64,000 bases of DNA. It comes from Amycolatopsis lexingtonensis (GTDB lineage: Bacteria > Actinomycetota > Actinomycetes > Mycobacteriales > Pseudonocardiaceae). The stretch spans positions 6,794,501 to 6,858,500 of the forward strand of contig NZ_JADBEG010000001.1 of NCBI RefSeq assembly GCF_014873755.1. The letters run 5' to 3'. Of the stretch, positions 8,163-61,088 are shown piece by piece. Each line of letters begins with the position of its first letter. Position 1 is the first letter of the stretch. The notes below the pieces were generated by a model. It ran no database searches, was not told the origin of the DNA, and worked only from the letters and a program-made list of their open reading frames with translations. Both the position numbers and the translations under genes were made by a program.

Positions 8163-8999
8163 ATGACCCTCTTGTCCTCCCGGCCGCCGCGGCCCGTCGA
8201 GCCCGGCCTGCTGTCGAGGGCGCTCGAAGTGGCCGGACGGCTGGCCAACGACGCCACCGACGTGATCACCGCGACCGCCGGCCGCGGCGCCCACCCGTCG
8301 ACGCTGGACTCGCCCTTCGACTGGGTCACCGACACCGACCGCATCCTGGAGCGCCACACGCGGCGCGTGCTGACGGCGGAGTTCCCGGGCATCCCGGTGG
8401 TCGGCCACGAGTTCGGCGCCGACCACGGCGCGGACGTCGCCGAGTACCGCTGGGTGGTCGACTCGGTGGACGGGACGGCGAACTACGTGGCCGGCGTGCC
8501 CTGGTGCGCCTACAGCCTGGCGCTGGTGGACGAGGCCGGACCGGTGGTGGGGGTGGTCGCGGACCCGTACCGCGCCCAGATCTACGCCGCGGCGCGCGGA
8601 CGAGGGGCCCGCGCGAACGGCAAGCCGGTCCGGCTGACGGACCGCTGCGTGACGGCGGGCGCGCTGGTCTGCACGGAGTTCGCGAGGAAAGGGCCGTGGC
8701 CGGGCATGGGCGGCTTCATCGAGCGGGCCGCGGCGGCCCACGCGGGGGTCCGGGTGCTGGGGTCGGCGGCGCTGTCGATCGCCCAGGTGGCACTGGGCCA
8801 CGCGGCGGCGGCGGTGCTGCACAGCTACCACGAGTGGGACGTGGCCGGGTCCGTGGCGATGGCGATCGAGGCGGGCGCGGTGGTGCTGGACCGGCACGGG
8901 GAGGACACGGCCCTGCCGACGGACGGCCTCCTGGTGGCGGCGCCGGGGGTGGCCGACGAGGTGCTGGGCTGGTGGCAGGAGACCGCGCACGCGGGCTGA
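8163..8999 (+). CDS. Inositol monophosphatase family protein
   Basis: A 278-aa member of the Mg2+-dependent IMPase/FBPase superfamily. Metal-site motifs are present in slightly divergent form: WVTDTDR (residues 54-60), HEFG (82-85) with the metal-binding Glu83, DSVDGT (100-105, usually DPIDGT) and HEWDVAGSVA near residue 222 for the WDxAAG motif. Likely a phosphatase of inositol phosphate, histidinol phosphate, PAP or a sugar phosphate; actinobacterial paralogues differ in substrate and this one cannot be assigned. It diverges from mgtA, sharing a 129-base promoter region. Confidence 0.85.
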   Translation: MTLLSSRPPRPVEPGLLSRALEVAGRLANDATDVITATAGRGAHPSTLDSPFDWVTDTDRILERHTRRVLTAEFPGIPVVGHEFGADHGADVAEYRWVVDSVDGTANYVAGVPWCAYSLALVDEAGPVVGVVADPYRAQIYAAARGRGARANGKPVRLTDRCVTAGALVCTEFARKGPWPGMGGFIERAAAAHAGVRVLGSAALSIAQVALGHAAAAVLHSYHEWDVAGSVAMAIEAGAVVLDRHGEDTALPTDGLLVAAPGVADEVLGWWQETAHAG

Positions 9000-9003
9000 G
9001 CGC

Positions 9004-9431
9004 CACTTTCACGTGAAAGTGCCGCTTTGGGCCCGGTCGCGCGGTCGGCGGCGGAGGTCATGAACGAGTCGTTCACCGCGTCCGACGACAGGGTCCCGGC
9101 AAAGTCGGGTCGGTGCGGTCCGCAGCGGTGCGCCAGCGTCTTGAATGACTCATTCAGGACCTCCGAAGACCTGAATGAGTCATTCAAGACGTGGGGCGAG
9201 CGGGTCACCGTCGGCGGAGTGGCCTGGCCGCGCGACTTTGCCGAAGCCCTGGCGTCCGACGACGTGAACGAGTCGTTCATGGCGTCGGCCCAGCCACGGC
9301 GGTCGGTCATGCCGCCGCTGCGAGTGGCTGGGAAGGTCGCGAATGACTCATTCGGGACCGCGGAGGTCGCGAATGAGTCATTCGCGACCTCCGGTTACGT
9401 ATCCGCCGCCGCTTTCACGTGAAAGCGGCGG
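9004..9431. repeat. Cluster of palindromic intergenic elements
   Basis: The whole gap between the IMPase and DUF3592 stops (convergent genes) is filled with palindromes. They are CACTTTCAC/GTGAAAGTG at 9004-9021; TGAACGA-G-TCGTTCA at 9061-9075 and 9265-9279; a pair of TGAATGA-S-TCATTCA units with 22-base arms at 9137-9158 and 9170-9191 around the 11-base spacer ACCTCCGAAGA; a CGAATGA-S-TCATTCG pair with 21-base arms at 9334-9354 and 9370-9390; and a perfect 26-base TTTCACGTGAAA palindrome at 9406-9431. Changes between units are compensated on both arms, so pairing is conserved rather than sequence. Confidence 0.88.
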
Positions 9432-9435
9432 TCGG

Positions 9436-9882
9436 TCAGGCTGCTGCCGGGGCCGGGGCGGCGCGCTTGTTCGCCCGGCGGATCCACCACAACAGCGGGC
9501 CCGCCACCAGCCACGTGAAGAGGATGAAGCTCCCGAGCGGCAGCAGCGTCAACGTCGCCGAGCGGCCCGCCACCCTGGCCAGCTCCGGGTCGGACGCGTC
9601 GTACTCGATGCGGACCAGCTGGCCCGCCGCCAGGCCGTCCGGGTACAGGACGCCGTTCGCCGGGCTGTGGACGATGCCGTCCGGGGTTTCGAAGTGGATG
9701 ATCGTGCGGTCGAACGCCACCGAGTCGACCGTCGCGGTCGCGGTGCCGAGCTGGGCGGAGATCGCGCCGTCGTTGCGGATCGCCGCGAACAGCAAGCACA
9801 CGCACATCACGGTGAGGAGCGAGGCGACGCCGAGGGTGGCCCACCACCCGACGCGCCTCGCCCGCTCACCTCTCGTGCTCAC
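9436..9882 (-). CDS. DUF3592 domain-containing membrane protein
   Basis: A 148-aa protein with two hydrophobic helices, about residues 12-34 and 110-135, flanking a soluble beta-rich segment (roughly 40-105). That segment reads like DUF3592: ATATVDSVAFDRT, then VRIEYDASDPELARV. The C-terminus is Ala/Arg-rich and cytoplasmic-looking. Function unknown. It is a single gene between the palindrome cluster and the M1 peptidase, 22 bases after the peptidase stop and convergent to it only in numbering, since both lie on the minus strand. Family assignment is from the loop pattern. Confidence 0.75.
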   Translation of the reverse strand: MSTRGERARRVGWWATLGVASLLTVMCVCLLFAAIRNDGAISAQLGTATATVDSVAFDRTIIHFETPDGIVHSPANGVLYPDGLAAGQLVRIEYDASDPELARVAGRSATLTLLPLGSFILFTWLVAGPLLWWIRRANKRAAPAPAAA

Positions 9883-24135: not shown

Positions 24136-24230
24136 CCCGAGCGCCCCAATGTGGCGTTCGGTGCGTCAGACGCACCCAATGTGGCGTTCGGTGCGTTGGA
24201 CGCAACCAACGCCACATTGGGGCGCTCGGG
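24136..24230. repeat. CCAATGTGGC palindromic element after tlpA
   Basis: Outer arms of 23 bases (24136-24158 and 24208-24230, beginning CCCGAGCGCCCCAATG) are perfectly complementary. Between them lie two copies of a unit reading CAATGTGGCGTTCGGTGCG, each ending in its own mini-hairpin, such as GGTGCGTC-A-GACGCACC. The element starts 10 bases past the stop of the TlpA-like gene. A second copy is at 44659-44745. Probable terminator or dispersed element. Confidence 0.85.
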
Positions 24231-36809: not shown

Positions 36810-37720
36810 GAGCGCACCACCATTTCCCGTCCGCCGTCCGGACCCGAACCGTTCCGCCCGCCGCTTCCATTCTCGGACGGCGCACCGGGACCGCGTAATC
36901 CGGAATTGCCCTGATCACCGGCGGCGTCGTCCGCGCGGCGGGCCACGTGGAACGAGAGTATCTGCAGCTCGACGGCCAAATCCACTTTGCGGACCTCGAT
37001 GTGAGCAGGAACCTGCAACACGACCGGGGCGAAGTTGAGGATGCACTGGACACCGCCCGCGACCAGACGGTCACACACCGATTGCGCGGCGGTCGGCGGG
37101 GTGGCGATCACGCCGATGGAGATACCGCGCTCGGCGCAGATCCGCGGAATGTCGTCCATGTGCGACACCGGGAGGCCGCCGACCGGCACGCCGATCAGGT
37201 CCGCGTCCAGGTCGAACAGCGCTTCCACCGGGAACCCGCGCCCCGGGAAGCCGCCGTAGTTCGCCAGCGCGTGCCCCAGGTTGCCGATGCCGACCACGGC
37301 CACCTTGTGCTGCCGGGTCAGGCCGAGGATCCGCTCGATCTGGCTCACCAGGACGCCGACTTCGTAGCCGACGCCGCGCGTGCCGTAGGACCCGAGGTAG
37401 GAAAGGTCCTTGCGCAATTTCGCGGAATTGACGCCCGCGGCTTGGGACAGCTCTTCGCTCGACACCGTCGTGGCGCCCTGGTCGCGCATCCCGGACAGCA
37501 CCCGCAGGTAGACGGCGAGCCGCGCGACCGCCGCTTCGGGGATCTGCTTCGCCCGGACGGCCTCGGGGGCATCCCCGTTGCGGCCGCCGGCGTCGGCGGG
37601 TACGGCGGGCATCTCCGCGGTGGGGGCGTTGTCGGCGTCCGGGGTGCTCGGGCGGCGGGGCCGTCGCGGCACCCGGCCCGGGGAGTCCGCCGCGTCGCGC
37701 CTCCCCCGCTGTGTCACCAC
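36806..37720 (-). CDS. rex: Redox-sensing transcriptional repressor Rex
   Basis: An NADH/NAD+-sensing repressor. After a Pro/Arg-rich disordered N-terminus of about 55 residues comes the winged helix ([36 protein letters not shown]), then the Rossmann domain with [17 protein letters not shown] and [15 protein letters not shown]. The C-terminus carries an extra Gly/Ser-rich tail. The GTG at 37720 is chosen because AGGAG lies 9 bases upstream; GTG 37747 would add nine residues. Rex boxes are visible upstream of nuoA and, weaker, upstream of rex itself. Confidence 0.92.
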
Positions 37721-37851
37721 GCCCGTAGTCTCCTGCTCGCTGTGCACCCGGCGGCCATCGCCACGGCCATGCCGAACTGTGTCTTGACCCAGGAAGCGGA
37801 GTCCGGTTCGATGCCGGACCGCCCGGGGGCGATGGCCCTACGGTAGACCAC

Positions 37852-37869
37852 TTGTGAACGCACGCACAA
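37852..37869 (-). promoter_or_regulatory. Probable autoregulatory Rex operator
   Basis: TTGTGAA-CGCA-CGCACAA: one half-site matches the Rex consensus, the other deviates (CGCACA for TTCACA). On the minus strand it overlaps a plausible promoter with TTGTGC as -35 and TACCGT as -10, about 130 bases before rex. Autoregulation of rex is known in Streptomyces. Between here and the repeat at 37994 nothing else is recognised. Confidence 0.65.
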
Positions 37870-37993
37870 AGTCACTGGTCGGAGGCGGTTCCGGGCGGCG
37901 CCCGATCATGACACCGCGTCAGAATCCTTGCCCGCCAGGCACTTCCGCCGGCACCATCCGGCCCGGCTCGCGTCGGCTCTGGTCGCGGACCCG

Positions 37994-38050
37994 AGGTCTT
38001 GAATGAGTCATTCAGGTCTTCGGAGGTCCTGAATGACTCATTCAAGACCT
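37994..38050. repeat. TGAATGA-type inverted palindrome pair
   Basis: Arms of 23 bases (37994-38016 and 38028-38050), each itself a palindrome TGAATGA-S-TCATTCA, surround the 11-base spacer TCTTCGGAGGT. That spacer is the reverse complement of the one at 9159-9169, so this is the same element in the other orientation. It lies 35 bases past the stop of the molybdopterin oxidoreductase. Confidence 0.88.
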
Positions 38051-38085
38051 TTGGCGAGCCGGCGGAGGCAGGCGCTTCCGGTGCG

Positions 38086-39642
38086 TCAGCTCGCGTCGAG
38101 GCTCACCGAGTGCCAGCCGGTCGCGCCGTCGGGGACCGGGTCCGCGCGGTTCTCCGTCTGCGTGTACCCGTCCTGGTCCGTCGCCCGGACGAACGCCTGG
38201 TGCGTCCCCTTCGGCACGTCCAGCTCGATCCACCACATCCGCCAGGTGTCCTTGCTCACCTCGGCCGAGAGCGTCGCCGGCTGCCACGGCCCCTGGTCCA
38301 GCCGGACCTCGACCTTCGCGATGCCGGTGTGCTGGGCCCACGCCGTCCCCGCCAGCCGGACCTTCCCGGCCGGGACGCGGGCGAACCCCGACGGCGTGTC
38401 GATGCGCGACTCCGTCTTGATCGGCGCCTGCTCGCTCCAGCCGCGGCTGAGCCAGTACGCCTGCCGGTCGCTCCACTTGGTGAACTCCAGCGACTCGACC
38501 CACTTCGTCGCCGACACGTACCCGTACAGCCCGGGGATCACGAGCCGCGCCGGGAAGCCGTGCTCGACCGGGAGGGGTTCGCCGTTCATGCCGATCGCCA
38601 GCATCGCGCCGCGCTGGGGGTCGAGGGCGACGTTCGCCGGGGTGCCGCACGTCCAGCCGTCGACGCTGGTGGCGAACATCTGCTCCGCGCCCGCCCGCAC
38701 GCCGGCTTCGTCCAGCAGGTCCACCAGGTCGACGCCGATCCAGCTGGCGTTCGAGATCAGCGGGCCGCCGACCTCGTTGGACACGCACGTCAGCGTCACC
38801 CGGCGTTCGACCAGCGGCCGGTTGCGGATGTCGGCGTAGGAGAACGTCACCTCGCGGTCGACCATCCCGTGGATGCGCAGGCTCCAGTCCTCGGTCCGGA
38901 TCTGCGGCACGACCAGCGCGGTGTCGATGCGGTAGAAGTCGCCGTTCGGCGTGATGAACGGCGGTGAGCCCAGCTTCGCGAAGTCGGCGTCCGCGGGCAG
39001 CGGCGGCGCGGTGCGCGCGGGCACCAGCGGCCCGACGGTGGCCCGGGACTCCTCGGCGTTCGAGCTGGTCCCGGCCACCTGGCCGACCACCGCCGCGACG
39101 CCCGAACCCGCGACGACGCCGACGCCGGCGCGCAGGAACTTCCGGCGGTCGAAGCCCCGGTCATCGACAACGTCCGGCGGCAGCGCGATCCGGTGCAGCC
39201 AGGTGAACACCGCGAGCCCGGCGACCAGGGCGGCGACCGGCGCGAGCAGCGACACCTGCCCGAGGTCGGAGCGCGCGAACACGGCGGCGACCCCGGCCGC
39301 GCCGAGCACGAAGACCAGGATCTGCCCGGCACGCGGCGTCCGGCGCGAAAGCTGCCCGGCCAGCAGCGCGAACAGGACCAGCACCACGGCGAGCCCGACC
39401 TTGAGCACCGGCTTGTCCCAGGTGCCCAGCGTCCGCTCGGCCCACTTCACGATGCCGGTCGGGCTGTGGTCGATGACGTAGTTCGCCACGGCGATGAACG
39501 GCGACGCCGTGTACCCGACGAAGCCCGCGACCAGGTGCCCCACGCCGAGCGCGGCGGCCAGCGCGAGGATCCCGATCAGGGTCGCGACCGGCAGCGAAAG
39601 CCGCCGGGGCGCTTCGGGCGGCGCGTCCTGCAGAGTGCTCAC
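38086..39642 (-). CDS. Membrane-anchored molybdopterin-dependent oxidoreductase
   Basis: A 518-aa protein of the sulfite-oxidase/YedY fold. About five N-terminal helices (residues 17-150) are followed by a twin-arginine-like segment (DRRKFLRAGVGVVAGSG) at which the extracytoplasmic domain begins. The Moco-binding Cys is in RRVTLTCVSNEVGG, and a C-terminal Ig-like dimerisation domain follows (VEVRLDQGPWQPATL). Substrate unknown; relatives act on sulfite, methionine sulfoxide or nitrate. It stands alone, with a palindromic element after its stop. Confidence 0.88.
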   Translation of the reverse strand: MSTLQDAPPEAPRRLSLPVATLIGILALAAALGVGHLVAGFVGYTASPFIAVANYVIDHSPTGIVKWAERTLGTWDKPVLKVGLAVVLVLFALLAGQLSRRTPRAGQILVFVLGAAGVAAVFARSDLGQVSLLAPVAALVAGLAVFTWLHRIALPPDVVDDRGFDRRKFLRAGVGVVAGSGVAAVVGQVAGTSSNAEESRATVGPLVPARTAPPLPADADFAKLGSPPFITPNGDFYRIDTALVVPQIRTEDWSLRIHGMVDREVTFSYADIRNRPLVERRVTLTCVSNEVGGPLISNASWIGVDLVDLLDEAGVRAGAEQMFATSVDGWTCGTPANVALDPQRGAMLAIGMNGEPLPVEHGFPARLVIPGLYGYVSATKWVESLEFTKWSDRQAYWLSRGWSEQAPIKTESRIDTPSGFARVPAGKVRLAGTAWAQHTGIAKVEVRLDQGPWQPATLSAEVSKDTWRMWWIELDVPKGTHQAFVRATDQDGYTQTENRADPVPDGATGWHSVSLDAS

Positions 39643-49543: not shown

Positions 49544-49596
49544 GTCTTGAATGACTCATTCAGGTCTCCGGAGGTCCTGAATGACTCATTCAAGAC
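49544..49596. repeat. TGAATGA-type inverted palindrome pair
   Basis: Arms of 21 bases at 49544-49564 and 49576-49596 around an 11-base spacer TCTCCGGAGGT. The arms match except for the centre base of the second arm (C where G would pair), so the only mismatch lies at the palindrome centre. It sits 36 bases past the thioesterase stop; the rest of the 178-base gap holds nothing else recognised. Confidence 0.86.
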
Positions 49597-49632: not shown

Positions 49633-50460
49633 TCAGCCGCCCGGGGCCGGAGCCAAGCCGAGCTGGCGGGCCTGGCACACCAGGCGGCCCTGGGAGTCCA
49701 CCACCGTCGCGTCCGAGTCGAACCACGACTCGTGCACCGACCGCGACTCCACCACCACCCGCAACCACCCCGGCGCCGGCCGCGTGCGCAGCAACGCCGT
49801 CAGCTGGACCGTCGGGGCCCAGCCGATGCGGCCCAGGTTCATCACCACCGGCGGGTTCACGTCGGACGCCAGCAGCGTGAAGTACGGGTCGACCAGGCTG
49901 TGCCGCGGCCGGACCCACAGCCGCATCCGGGGCGGCTCGCCCGTGCGGCCGGCCAGGTAGCCCGCCGTCGCCGGGTCCAGGCGGACCTCGCAGCCCTTGG
50001 CCAGGTTGAACGGGCCCTCCGTGCTCTCCGCCATCGCGAGCGCGCCGGGTGGGGGCTCGGCGGGCATCGCCGGGACGTCGGTCCACTCCGGGCGGCGCAT
50101 CGGGAGCCGGCCGGTCGTCACGCGCGCCTCGACGCAGCTGCGGCCACGCTGCTCCAGCCGGACCTCGACGACCGTCGCGCGGCGGCCGACCTTGCGGACG
50201 TCCGTGCGCAGCAGCACCGGGCCCAGCGCCGGCGCGTGCAGGAACTCCGCGCTGACGACGAGGGGCTCCGCGTGCGGCTCCCCGCGTTCGTGCAACGCGG
50301 CGATCGCCGCCTTGGCCAGCAGGGCCAGCAGGAAACCCCCGTGCGGGTGGGAGCCGATGGCCCATTCCGCACGCAGCACCGCGGTGAAGGTGCCGTCCCC
50401 CAGCGACCGCGCCGCACTCGCCGTGTCGAAGGACGCGGCGGTGCCGTCCGTTCCGCTCAC
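49633..50460 (-). CDS. Acyl-CoA thioesterase family protein (TesB-like double hotdog)
   Basis: A 275-aa protein with two hotdog-fold halves. The first has GSHPHGGFLLALLAKAA, the N-terminal hotdog motif, the second PVVMNLGRIGWAPTVQLTALL and VESRSVHESWFDSDA. This is the TesB/4HBT_3 pattern, close to mycobacterial Rv0499-type proteins. Substrate is probably a medium- or long-chain acyl-CoA. ATG start at 50460; no operon partner. Confidence 0.82.
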   Translation of the reverse strand: MSGTDGTAASFDTASAARSLGDGTFTAVLRAEWAIGSHPHGGFLLALLAKAAIAALHERGEPHAEPLVVSAEFLHAPALGPVLLRTDVRKVGRRATVVEVRLEQRGRSCVEARVTTGRLPMRRPEWTDVPAMPAEPPPGALAMAESTEGPFNLAKGCEVRLDPATAGYLAGRTGEPPRMRLWVRPRHSLVDPYFTLLASDVNPPVVMNLGRIGWAPTVQLTALLRTRPAPGWLRVVVESRSVHESWFDSDATVVDSQGRLVCQARQLGLAPAPGG

Positions 50461-58044: not shown

Positions 58045-58916
58045 AGCGGTTGCTCCTCGCGCTCGTCCTGACGGCTTCAGCGTGCTCCTCGGCGGTTTCC
58101 GGCACGGCGACGGCGCTGACGGGCAACCTCGCGGTGGTCAACGCGCCCGGGACGGCCGGCGCGCTCGCCGCCGTGAAGACCGCGGCCGAAGCGGTGTTCA
58201 GCTACGACTCGGCGAACCCGGCGGCGTTCGACCAGGCCGTCGCCGCGAACGTGACCGGGGCGGCGAAGGGCCAGCTCACGGCGTTGTTCGAGCAGGTCAG
58301 GAAGAGCCCGCAGCCGGTGCGCCTGACCACGACCGTGGCGCGGGCCGCGGCGCTGGAGCTGTCCGGCGGGAAGGTCCGCGAGCTGGCGGTGCTGGAGCAG
58401 GTCAGCGGCACCACGAAGGGCCTCGCGACGGTGGCGTTCACCGCGCTCGAGGACGGCGGGCGCTGGCGGCTCTCGGACATCGCCGTCAACCCGGCGCAGC
58501 CGTCCCCGGCCGCGCACCCGGACGACGGGAGCCTGGCGGGCCTGCGCGACTCGGCACTGGCCGGAGCGCGCACGGCCGCGGGCGCGCTGTTCACGACCGA
58601 CAGCGGCGACCCGGAAGGCAGCTACGCGCGGGCCGAGGCGGTCGCGGCCGAGCCGTTGCTGAGCGACTACCGCGCGAAGAAGGCGACCTACGTCGACGCG
58701 ATCCGGCGAAGCGGCACGAAGGTGGCGCTCGGCCCGGACCCCCTGAGCGGCGTCACGACGCTGACCGGCGGCCGCGCGACGGTGCTGTTCTTCACCACGC
58801 TGCAGGTGACCGGTCCCACCGGCACCACCGACCGCCCGTTCACCACGGAACTCGACCTCACCCGCGAAGGCACCACCTGGAAGGCGACCGCCGTCCGCCC
58901 GTTCACCGCGGCTTAA
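58041..58916 (+). CDS. Putative lipoprotein
   Basis: A 291-aa exported lipoprotein (KRLLLALVLTASACSS, lipobox Cys near residue 16). The body has two similar alpha+beta halves, each beginning with an alanine-rich helix (AAVKTAAEAVFSYDSANP and ALAGARTAAGALFTTDSGDP) as if a small NTF2-like domain were duplicated. No family named with confidence; Mce-associated proteins have a similar layout. Co-translated with the regulator (GTGA overlap), ending next to a palindromic element. Confidence 0.72.
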   Translation: MKRLLLALVLTASACSSAVSGTATALTGNLAVVNAPGTAGALAAVKTAAEAVFSYDSANPAAFDQAVAANVTGAAKGQLTALFEQVRKSPQPVRLTTTVARAAALELSGGKVRELAVLEQVSGTTKGLATVAFTALEDGGRWRLSDIAVNPAQPSPAAHPDDGSLAGLRDSALAGARTAAGALFTTDSGDPEGSYARAEAVAAEPLLSDYRAKKATYVDAIRRSGTKVALGPDPLSGVTTLTGGRATVLFFTTLQVTGPTGTTDRPFTTELDLTREGTTWKATAVRPFTAA

Positions 58917-58969
58917 AGGTCGTGAATGCCACATTCACGACCTTTAAGGACGTGAATGTGGCATTCACG
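58913..58969. repeat. GTGAATG-type double palindrome between convergent genes
   Basis: Two competing folds share one sequence. TTAAAGGTCGTGAATG pairs with CATTCACGACCTTTAA (58913-58928 with 58932-58947, loop CCA), or CGTGAATGCCACATTCACG (58921-58939) pairs with its complement at 58951-58969 around an 11-base spacer. It lies between the lipoprotein stop and the gpm stop, so it may end both transcripts. Confidence 0.85.
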
Positions 58970-58977
58970 GAGTTGGG

Positions 58978-59727
58978 TCAGCGGCCCTGGTTGGCGACCG
59001 CGGCGGCGGCTTCCTTGGCGGCCTCGGGGTCGAGGTACTCACCGCCCGGCTTCAGCGGCTTGAGGTCGTCGCCCAGGTCGTAGCGCAGCGGGATGCCGGT
59101 CGGGATGTTCAGGCCGGCGATGTCGGCGTCGGAGATCCCGTCGAGGTGCTTGACGAGCGCGCGCAGCGAGTTGCCGTGCGCGGCGACCAGCACGGTCTTG
59201 CCCGCGCGCAGGTCCGGCACGATCGCGGACTCCCAGTACGGCAGCAGCCGCTCGACGACGTCCTTGAGGCACTCGGTCAGCGGCGCGTCGTCGCCGAGGT
59301 CCGCGTACCGGGCGTCGCCGGCCTGGCTCCACTCGTCCTTCGGGTCGATCGCGGGCGGCGGGGTGTCGTAGGAGCGGCGCCAGAGCATGAACTGCTCCTC
59401 GCCGAACTCCGCGAGGGTCTGCTTCTTGTCCTTGCCCTGCAGGGCGCCGTAGTGGCGCTCGTTGAGCCGCCAGTCGCGCTTCACGGGGATCCAGTGCCGG
59501 TCGGCGGCGTCCAGCGCGATGTTCGCGGTGGAGATCGCGCGGCGCAGCAGCGAGGTGTGCACCACGTCCGGCAGCAGGCCGGCGTCGGCCAGCAACTGCC
59601 CGCCCTGGCGGGCTTCGCCTTCACCCTGTTCCGAGAGCGGCACGTCCACCCAGCCGGTGAACAGGTTTTCCGCGTTCCACGTGCTCTGCCCGTGGCGGAG
59701 CAGCACCAACGTCCCGAGTTCAGCCAT
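58978..59727 (-). CDS. gpmA: 2,3-bisphosphoglycerate-dependent phosphoglycerate mutase
   Basis: A 249-aa glycolytic mutase interconverting 3- and 2-phosphoglycerate. The phospho-His is His12 in [11 protein letters not shown], the second His in [17 protein letters not shown], and the [12 protein letters not shown] segment that distinguishes the cofactor-dependent type is present. Length agrees with GpmA. It lies next to senX3-regX3 as in mycobacteria. ATG start at 59727. Confidence 0.94.
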
Positions 59728-59990
59728 ACCGTCAGCCTGCCAGAACCGGTCCGTGATTCCACCAGTGACCTCGGCCTACCGAGAGTGTGTTACCCCCGAG
59801 TAACACCTCACCCTTCGACAAGTCCGAGCGTCAACAACGCGCAAATTCCGGGCAACAAACTGCACACCGTTATCGCTCGCCGGTAAATTCACTCGAACGG
59901 ACTAGTGAGTAGTCTTGTGATTACACGTCGAGATCTGACAGGTTGACTACGTCCCGAGCGGCCGGATTCCACGCACTCCCCGGCCGGATT

Positions 59991-60150
59991 CGGGCTTTGA
60001 CCGCGGCTCGTCTCCCCCCTGCCGAGCCGCGGCCCGCCCGGCCCCGTTGGCACCCCCCTCGTCACCGGGTCCTGATCGGCGGGAACTTCAGCGGGGCGGC
60101 TCGAGATCGCGACTCCCCCCTCCCTCGAGCCGTCCCGCCTGTCCCGTTCA
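59991..60150 (+). ncRNA. 6C small RNA
   Basis: Structured intergenic RNA on the plus strand with C-rich loops. Hairpin 1: CCGCGGCTCG (60001-60010) pairs with CGAGCCGCGG (60023-60032), and its loop contains CCCCCC at 60014-60019. Last hairpin: GCGGGGCGGCTCGAG (60091-60105) pairs with CTCGAGCCGTCCCGC (60124-60138, one G-U), with CCCCCC at 60115-60120. This is the 6C motif known across actinobacteria. A third C6 run (60053-60058) sits in the loop of a weaker stem, GCCCGG/CCGGGT (60036-60041 with 60065-60070). Ends are approximate. The stretch 59728-59940 is relatively AT-rich and presumably holds the gpm and 6C promoters. Confidence 0.85.
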
Positions 60151-60161
60151 CCTCGGCAAAG

Positions 60162-60214
60162 GTCTTGAATGAGTCATTCAGGACCTCCGAAGACCTGAAT
60201 GACTCATTCAAGAC
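60162..60214. repeat. TGAATGA-type inverted palindrome pair after the 6C RNA
   Basis: Arms GTCTTGAATGAGTCATTCAGG (21 bases; 60162-60182) and its complement at 60194-60214, with spacer ACCTCCGAAGA, exactly as at 9159-9169. It lies 16 bases from the DUF4349 stop and just downstream of the 6C RNA, so it may terminate both. Positions are given to save space; the arm differs from the 9137 copy only at the centre base. Confidence 0.87.
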
Positions 60215-60230: not shown

Positions 60231-61088
60231 TCACACCTCGGTCGGCTCCGGCCGGGCCGCGCGGCGGCGCCGGTTCAGCCACCAGCCACCCCAGGCCAGC
60301 GGGCCCACGATCAGCAAGAACGGCGCGATCGCGCCCAGCACGGTCAGCAGCCCCCCGCCGAAGGTCAGGAACGCGTCCCAGCCGCCGGCCAGCCCGCCCA
60401 GGAACCCGCTGTGGTCCTCTTCCGCCGGCGGGGGCGCCGCCACGCTGCGGATGCTCATCGCCACCGTTGCCATCGCGACGCTGCCCGCCAGCGAATTCCG
60501 CTGCTGCTCCAGCGATTCCAGCGCCGACTCACGGCTGGTCAGCTCGCTCTCGACCGAGGCGATCTCCGACACCGAAGTCGCCTTCGCGAGCAGCGCGCGG
60601 ATCCGCTCCACCGACGCCCGCTGCGTCTGCAGCCGCGCCTCGACGTCGACGACCTGCTCGGTCACGTCCTGGGTGTTCAGCTCCCGCTTCACCAGGCTCG
60701 TGCCCAGGTGCGAGAGCTGGTCGAGCGCGCCGTCGAGCTTGTCCGCCGGCACCGCGAGGCTGAGCGTCGCGTACTCCTCGCCCGTGCTCTCCTGCCCGGT
60801 GTAGCCGCCCGCGCCCTGCGCGATCCCGCGGGCCTGCGCGACGACGTCGACGACCTTGGTCGCGGTCAGCTCCAGCCGCGCGCTGCGGGACAGCTTCCGG
60901 TCGGTGGCGCCCGCCTGCGGCGGGGTCACCTTCGACTCCGGCTTGCCCGCCGTCCCCTGATTCGGCACGGCGGGCGCGACCCCGGCACTGTCCGCCGTGG
61001 ACGATGCCCCGTTCTCCCCCGCCGAGCAGCCGGCCAGCGCCAGCGCCGCCGCGGTGATCGCGAGCGCCGCTCTCCATCGAGTCCGCAT
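60231..61088 (-). CDS. DUF4349 domain lipoprotein
   Basis: A 285-aa lipoprotein (LALAGCSAG lipobox, Cys21). The DUF4349 domain (about residues 65-245) starts with DRKLSRSARLELTATKVVDV and contains a coiled coil (ELTSRESALESLEQQRNSLA). It ends in a membrane helix (about 245-268) and a basic tail. Lipid anchor plus a C-terminal helix is the usual form for the family; function unknown. ATG start at 61088. Confidence 0.87.
   Translation of the reverse strand: MRTRWRAALAITAAALALAGCSAGENGASSTADSAGVAPAVPNQGTAGKPESKVTPPQAGATDRKLSRSARLELTATKVVDVVAQARGIAQGAGGYTGQESTGEEYATLSLAVPADKLDGALDQLSHLGTSLVKRELNTQDVTEQVVDVEARLQTQRASVERIRALLAKATSVSEIASVESELTSRESALESLEQQRNSLAGSVAMATVAMSIRSVAAPPPAEEDHSGFLGGLAGGWDAFLTFGGGLLTVLGAIAPFLLIVGPLAWGGWWLNRRRRAARPEPTEV

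Follow-up and report, generated by a model that had tools for sequence, protein, structure and literature searches.

Some genomes of Amycolatopsis carry a real and abundant family of extragenic repeats, a REPIN-like variant for which no RAYT transposase has been found. The copy considered here lies in the window, i.e., the whole stretch of 64,000 nucleotides analysed from Amycolatopsis lexingtonensis, which falls within one contig of 10,737,921 bases in a genome of 10.74 Mb. Our preferred explanation, in which we place somewhat better than even confidence, is that the repeat forms a REPIN-like population whose unit is spread by an activity other than RAYT and turns over after genes, where its copies probably act as U-less terminators or 3'-end blocks.

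All four sites in the window contain a 45-base core in which two copies of a 15-base odd palindrome (TGAATGA-S-TCATTCA) enclose a middle of 15 bases (exact cores at 9142-9186, 38000-38044, 49548-49592, and 60166-60210). Stem pairing extends outward as GTCT...AGAC, giving approximately 53 bases per site. In the focal element (37996-38048), GTCT is followed by arm 1 (38000-38014), the middle (38015-38029), arm 2 (38030-38044), and AGAC; the other three copies span 9138-9190, 49544-49596, and 60162-60214. The palindrome pairs that an earlier note had reported at these loci are real, as the window contains eight exact arms compared with none in 100 shuffles. Three sites share the middle GGTCTTCGGAGGTCC or its complement, and that of the 49548 copy deviates from it by a single base, in line with the earlier description. 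The arms are full inverted copies of each other, as was also claimed, at three of the four sites; the 49548 copy has C at both arm centres, and thus one pair is mismatched. Chance origin can be dismissed, given the empty shuffles and the absence of any match to a reversed control pattern throughout the host genome. An origin from a plasmid or phage was likewise rejected because positions 37970-38080 have no match in either of the two collections searched (plasmid and phage), and Rfam gave no match in the window at gathering scores.

According to our own gene calls, three of the four window copies, which the earlier note had described as never within an operon, sit between co-directional genes. 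The focal element is flanked by two minus-strand genes and lies downstream of one of them (38086-39642), whose stop codon is 41 bp away. The third and fourth copies are located 40 and 20 bp beyond the stops of the minus-strand genes 49633-50460 and 60231-61088, respectively. The second copy, between the convergent genes 8163-8999 (+) and 9436-9882 (-), is 142 bp beyond the stop of one and 249 bp away from that of the facing gene. The earlier statement that all copies lie 10-120 bases past a stop codon thus applies to three sites and fails at 9142. The latter copy is embedded in a longer composite repeat (family A), to whose left and right outer parts belong variant arms, TGAACGAGTCGTTCA, at 9061-9075 and 9265-9279. 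A complete variant element with the 15-15-15 layout of the core and the arms CGAATGA-S-TCATTCG is found at 9340-9384.

The host genome contains 269 exact pairs and 558 exact arms, of which 538 belong to exact pairs and 20 do not; doublets are therefore far more common than singles. In 0.864 Mb of host sequence (the window plus 40 stretches picked for the copies in them), 62 pairs are perfect, one has a single mismatch, and none has two or three. A further 21 places have four to eight mismatches; some of these are hairpins that share the layout but have different arm words, and others are shifted or chance matches. The middle has no preferred direction (orientations 21 vs. 24), and a directional role for it was rejected. 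Family A repeats are approximately 220-340 bp long, with the core between CCGGCAAAGTC and GACTTTGCCGG and parts of TGAACGA-type hairpins outside. The flanks that other copies have in common are shorter or nearly absent. Among 28 family A copies, mismatches affect 1 of 784 arm positions (0.13%), 10 of 420 middle positions, and 680 of 6050 flank positions (11.2%), although the 371-base query with which they were collected included the core and thus favoured copies with intact cores. The query yielded 30 loci (40 of 369 candidates were scored), of which 29 align across the core and 28 remain when the query's own locus is dropped. Either mutated copies vanish fast, or the arms are corrected or selected. 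In one genome, the core module of a locus (L189) breaks up a TGAACGA-type hairpin that is continuous at another locus (L183).

A scan of genome contigs for the repeat gave at least 120 stretches, and its distribution is patchy. Exact pairs occur in 14 of 80 genomes of the genus (the host included), in 1 of 310 other genomes of the family, and in none of 48 genomes from other families of the order. Relaxed pairs are present in 21 of the 80 genus genomes, at 1 to 279 per genome, and the other 59 have none. The highest counts were obtained for the host (G000, 279), G060 (102), G005 (97), G046 (90), G058 (89), G003 (76), G120 (73), and G054 (58), and the remaining 13 genomes have 1 to 30 each. Since G058 has 89 relaxed but no exact pairs and G003 has 76 relaxed and 14 exact pairs, the preferred arm words differ among genomes. 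The scan of this and related genomes that the earlier note had proposed thus returned 269 exact copies in the host and a range of 0 to 279 across the genus. The one family genome outside the genus (G209, seven exact pairs) gave matches that fit Allokutzneria sp. NRRL B-24872. Two of four loci in Allokutzneria contain three arms in a row at 30-bp steps (L091, 1957-2031; L053, 5547-5621), with middles unlike those of Amycolatopsis. L091 also has a degenerate fourth arm and two successive middles in opposite directions, and in this respect resembles a bacterial interspersed mosaic element. A search of one open library for the arm strings and for palindromic intergenic repeats of Amycolatopsis found no literature on this repeat.

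Comparison of the syntenic window regions in 10 relatives (mean identity 88-95%) suggests that the copies are gained and lost. Site 60166 is empty in 5 of the 10 relatives (G003, G005, G059, G061, and G067), carries a CGAATGA-type element in G046 and a TGAATGA element with a different middle in G054, and is replaced by longer, other sequence in G056 and G063; the right flank is absent in G060. Site 38000 is empty in G063 and G067, has a TGAACGA-type element in G003, and corresponds to TGAATGA elements inside longer inserts in G005 and G060; the remaining five relatives have other sequence. Site 49548 is empty in G054, G059, and G067, contains a TGAATGA element in G046 and, with one arm mismatch, in G003, a CGAATGA element in G005, and TGAACGA-related hairpins in G060 and G063, and is occupied by other sequence in G056 and G061. 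No clean empty orthologous site was found for the 9142 copy among the 10 relatives. In a larger set of 85 alignment rows between host copies and relatives, a few of which are short and possibly non-orthologous matches, 24 are continuous across the site (the relative has a relaxed-type hairpin in 11 and lacks one in 13) and 61 are split, with a subject gap of less than 30 in 18 and other sequence in 43. Clean empty sites are thus in the minority. Several copies appear to be common to relatives, namely, L150_3203 (shared by the host, G003, and G060) and the 49548 copy (G003 and G046), which speaks against our preferred explanation. When 104 elements of all genomes were searched, 56 element-relative comparisons (25 elements) had a short subject gap, of which eight have overlaps longer than 50 bases and are ambiguous because hairpins recur inside them.

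The junctions carry imperfect direct repeats of 14 bases in three relatives, 8 in one, and 0 in one at site 60166, of 16 bases at 38000 (G063), and of 19-28 bases at 49548. At site 24954 of G046, they measure 21-32 bases in four relatives and are longer in three, and other sites have little or no junction repeat. Overlaps measure approximately 12-31 bp at some sites and are missing at others, the range in unambiguous cases being from none to approximately 31 bp; there is no target duplication of fixed length, as would be expected of a MITE, and a uniform target duplication was rejected. As these repeats are imperfect and non-uniform, they define no insertion mechanism. The earlier suggestion of a mobile family and the suspicion that the repeat is more than a plain terminator would need are both supported by the 269 exact copies, the patchy range, the orthologous sites that are empty in relatives (in the case of three window copies), the nested insertion, and the much stronger conservation of arms than of flanks.

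The unit is predicted to fold in two ways. The long hairpin, calculated without further flanks, has an energy of approximately -36.7 kcal/mol, compared with -7.4 kcal/mol for the two arm hairpins together and -6.6 kcal/mol for a single arm. With approximately ten flanking bases, the four window copies have predicted minimum free energies of -36.9 to -45.9 kcal/mol and z-scores of -5.8 to -9.9 (five folds, i.e., one strand for three copies and both strands for the 38000 copy). According to these models, the long fold and the two-arm fold are mutually exclusive and the long one dominates. The two exclusive structures proposed earlier are therefore retained in the sense of exclusivity, but they are unbalanced, the long fold being ahead by approximately 29 kcal/mol. 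This gap led us to reject a balanced regulatory switch; some hairpins with the layout of the core have arms unable to self-pair, which also speaks against such a role.

The position of the copies relative to genes is clearly biased. The 77 distinct host copies with a 15-base middle (out of 269) were placed by means of gene calls from a custom codon-usage script rather than a published caller. None of these copies lies within a called gene; 27 are convergent, 45 co-directional, and 5 divergent, compared with 9.0, 39.5, and 28.5 expected from intergenic bases (chi-square 56). The background for this expectation is not independent, as it was taken from the window and from stretches selected for their copies. 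The placement after stop codons noticed earlier is therefore non-random. In the co-directional class, the median distance is 57 bp from the upstream stop to the copy and 160 bp from the copy to the next start. A mixed set of 143 own and foreign copies comprises 60 co-directional, 50 convergent, 15 divergent, and 2 inside genes, with 16 unclassed at locus edges.

This bias, together with the stable hairpins, would also be expected if each copy were a standard bidirectional terminator kept in place by selection, with the shared sequence due to a trans factor or to frequent conversion between copies. We consider this explanation unlikely. The bias itself is not decisive: REPs in other bacteria are likewise placed between convergent and co-directional genes near 3' ends (PMC3733652, in part), and placement after genes is thus no proof of a terminator role. 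No terminator-like site with a U-run was found at 37700-38300, the one site scanned. Stable hairpins do follow the genes, and the flank consensus of the repeat is AGAC. Structured 3' ends that are U-poor outnumber U-rich ones in Streptomyces clavuligerus, 353 vs. 182 (PMC8269248, in part), and the missing U-run is thus compatible with termination. Indeed, U-less (I-shaped) terminators of GC-rich actinomycetes are, as outlined in part of the same source, also stable post-stop hairpins that have no U-tract and are usable both ways; however, in the Amycolatopsis repeat a single word with nested palindromes recurs unchanged hundreds of times, and ordinary terminators would not be expected to share one sequence. 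Orthologous sites often hold other hairpins. In relatives without the core, a stem of at least 14 is present in 20 of 41 co-directional comparisons vs. 49 of 166 control gaps (p 0.026) and in 10 of 18 convergent comparisons vs. 5 of 14 (p 0.31), the pairs being non-independent; this weak enrichment at replaced sites hints at interchangeable terminators and would be in keeping with a required terminator, and 21 of the 41 and 8 of the 18 comparisons show no such stem. Selection for termination alone also sits poorly with the 59 of 80 genus genomes that have no relaxed pair and has no need of self-palindromic arms that are identical in 269 places.

Which of the two pairings is kept was addressed with 261 distinct pairs, which were collected with a loose arm pattern ignoring the centres, many of them from loci chosen for containing exact pairs. 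In this set, 246 are perfect in both the long hairpin and the self-pairing of the arms (18 of these with another arm word), 2 retain only the long hairpin, 13 carry a mismatch that breaks both, and none keeps the arm symmetry with a broken long hairpin. The relaxed variants are real, as had been claimed: CGAATGA...TCATTCG and TGAACGA...TCGTTCA keep every pair through four-fold changes. A wider scan for long hairpins found related words with arms that are not self-palindromic, e.g., TGAAAGGGTCGTTCA with TGAACGACCCTTTCA. The arm centres are C or G in all 77 host copies tallied and complementary in 63; in the other 14, they are mismatched within the long hairpin. Taken together, the pair tallies, the wider scan, and the centres indicate that the long hairpin is common to a wider group, whereas self-palindromic arms are typical of its most numerous words.

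The same data bear on two further explanations. Each arm might be the site of a dimeric DNA-binding protein, such that pairs 30 bp apart (approximately three helical turns) would hold two dimers on the same face. The arms are indeed perfect odd palindromes, their centres are mismatched within the long hairpin in those 14 copies, three arms follow one another at 30-bp steps with other middles in the two Allokutzneria loci, and 18 of 20 elements that have changed and are still fully paired are altered in all four half-arms. We nonetheless regard this explanation as quite improbable: protein binding alone has no need of complementary centres (63 of 77), related hairpins keep long pairing with non-self-palindromic arms, the copies lie mostly after genes and not at promoters, and no candidate protein was identified. 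Alternatively, the repeat could be passive and functionless, kept perfect without a dedicated enzyme because replication or repair corrects imperfect palindromes from a template. This would account for arm changes that mostly involve whole words and are symmetric in those 18 elements; however, repair within a copy leaves unexplained the same word across 269 copies, the different dominant words per genome, and the insertion after genes, and 13 of the 261 pairs keep an uncorrected single mismatch, which makes correction alone a very doubtful explanation.

The closest known counterparts of the repeat, which we continue to regard as a REPIN-like population, are the REPINs of Pseudomonas and other bacteria, which are tied to RAYT transposases (PMC3116915, in part). 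According to this partial source, both have inverted, conserved palindromic ends, a less conserved middle of fixed length, and a long hairpin, and both are extragenic, occur in high copy number, and have the doublet as their unit. In Amycolatopsis, the inverted palindrome pair forming a single hairpin, the excess of doublets over singles, and the extragenic location were all found; the RAYT (Y1, PF01797) was not. It was found neither in the host nor in any of the 80 genus genomes searched, whereas 5 of 14 controls were positive, and mobilisation by RAYT was therefore rejected. The Amycolatopsis repeat also differs in its actinobacterial host and in its arms, which are perfect self-palindromes with centres only 30 bp from each other. 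REP dimers tagged with GTAG or CGTC are likewise located near gene 3' ends and have their members in opposite orientation, and the CGTC group has no dedicated transposase either (PMC3733652, in part). However, their stem words differ and their tag is described there as unpaired, whereas in the Amycolatopsis repeat the GTC(T) next to one arm is base-paired with the (A)GAC next to the other. Each of the bases G, T, and C precedes the arm in more than 90% of 121 non-host copies and is paired in the long fold; one copy in G054 has GACG beside the arm.

Searches with PF01797 and one IS110 protein revealed no transposase for the repeat, no autonomous copy, and no autonomous transposon sharing the CCGGCAAAGTC...GACTTTGCCGG of family A. 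An IS110-family transposase (PF01548 and PF02371) is nonetheless associated with the arms. It is present in three identical copies in the host (L319/L324 at G000:C1:1811534-1813124, G000:C1:3011681, and 9559609) and in two copies at 90% identity in G120. All five of these close elements start directly after the TCATTCA of an arm, with GGAC adjoining the right end; four are located between arm and middle, and one (L331) after the second arm. Eight weaker matches (50-63% identity; four in G009 and one each in G021, G044, G069, and G024) have no arm in their loci. The IS110 ORF between split arms (G000:1811766-1813031) was considered as an autonomous partner and rejected, since the element is inserted into the repeat and the repeat is its target. 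This is reminiscent of IS621, an IS110-family element that uses REPs as targets (PMC11208160, in part), although the element found here is not known to move the repeat. The 232 bases preceding the IS110 ORF contain GTCATTCAG and, 31 bases further on, GGTCCTG, both of which are also present upstream in the G120 copy examined. Judged by sequence match, these are two candidate guide words for the left and right target, in the order of the IS621 bridge RNA (PMC11208160, in part). For this IS110 element, which is probably RNA-guided, the repeat would serve as a landing site.

In our preferred explanation, the unit would be the inverted pair of 15-bp palindromes, which, as RNA or single-stranded DNA, would fold into one hairpin of at least 21 bp. 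It would replicate as a unit within the genomes of a subset of Amycolatopsis through an activity other than a Y1/RAYT transposase, presumably with a partner protein, and would carry variable flanks along, with copies quickly gained and lost. Copies would be tolerated chiefly after stop codons, where they would be transcribed and probably serve in both directions as 3'-end blocks or U-less terminators. That they help to end transcripts is likely, and this would be a by-product useful to the host that other hairpins can supply too. More tentatively, and with confidence short of even, we suggest that a single such activity may recognise the nested palindromes, spread them behind genes, and keep the arms perfect, with preferred arm words that differ between species. 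With approximately 270 copies, near-invariant arms, and no RAYT found in the genus, there may be another means by which such repeats are spread and maintained, which the species series (differing arm words and 0 to 279 copies) makes testable. Amycolatopsis is an antibiotic-producing genus, and these repeats would be prominent 3'-end signals when its transcription units are read.

Several other features of the window were recorded. TGAATGYSRCATTCA (58924-58968) was considered as a second dispersed family and rejected; with two exact pairs in the host genome and one in G067, it is so rare that it was treated as an ordinary terminator-like hairpin. This hairpin, TGAATGCCACATTCA...TGAATGTGGCATTCA, fills the gap between the convergent stops at 58916 and 58978, where the relatives compared carry different hairpins or none. 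Another nested palindrome, at 2693-2743 (also 9006 and 9412), has CACTTTCACGTGAAAGTG twice around a 15-base middle, and CTTTCACGTGAAAG occurs nine times in the 0.864 Mb, including three pairs with a spacing of exactly 33 bp. The ParB site is GTTTCACGTGAAAC; the nested palindrome of CACTTTCACGTGAAAGTG and CTTTCACGTGAAAG resembles it, and GTTTCACGTGAAAC itself is absent from the 0.864 Mb. The palindrome TGCGTC-N-GACGCA (nine in 0.864 Mb) and hairpins with ACCCAATGTGGCGTT arms were also seen (window positions 24162, 24174, 44681, and 44711). Finally, positions 59951-60150, upstream of the minus-strand gene 58978-59727, are 90-99% identical in 29 of 29 other loci (in one over 82 bases), compared with 75-94% for the adjoining gene end in the 27 loci where it aligned, and may represent an unrecognised RNA or leader.
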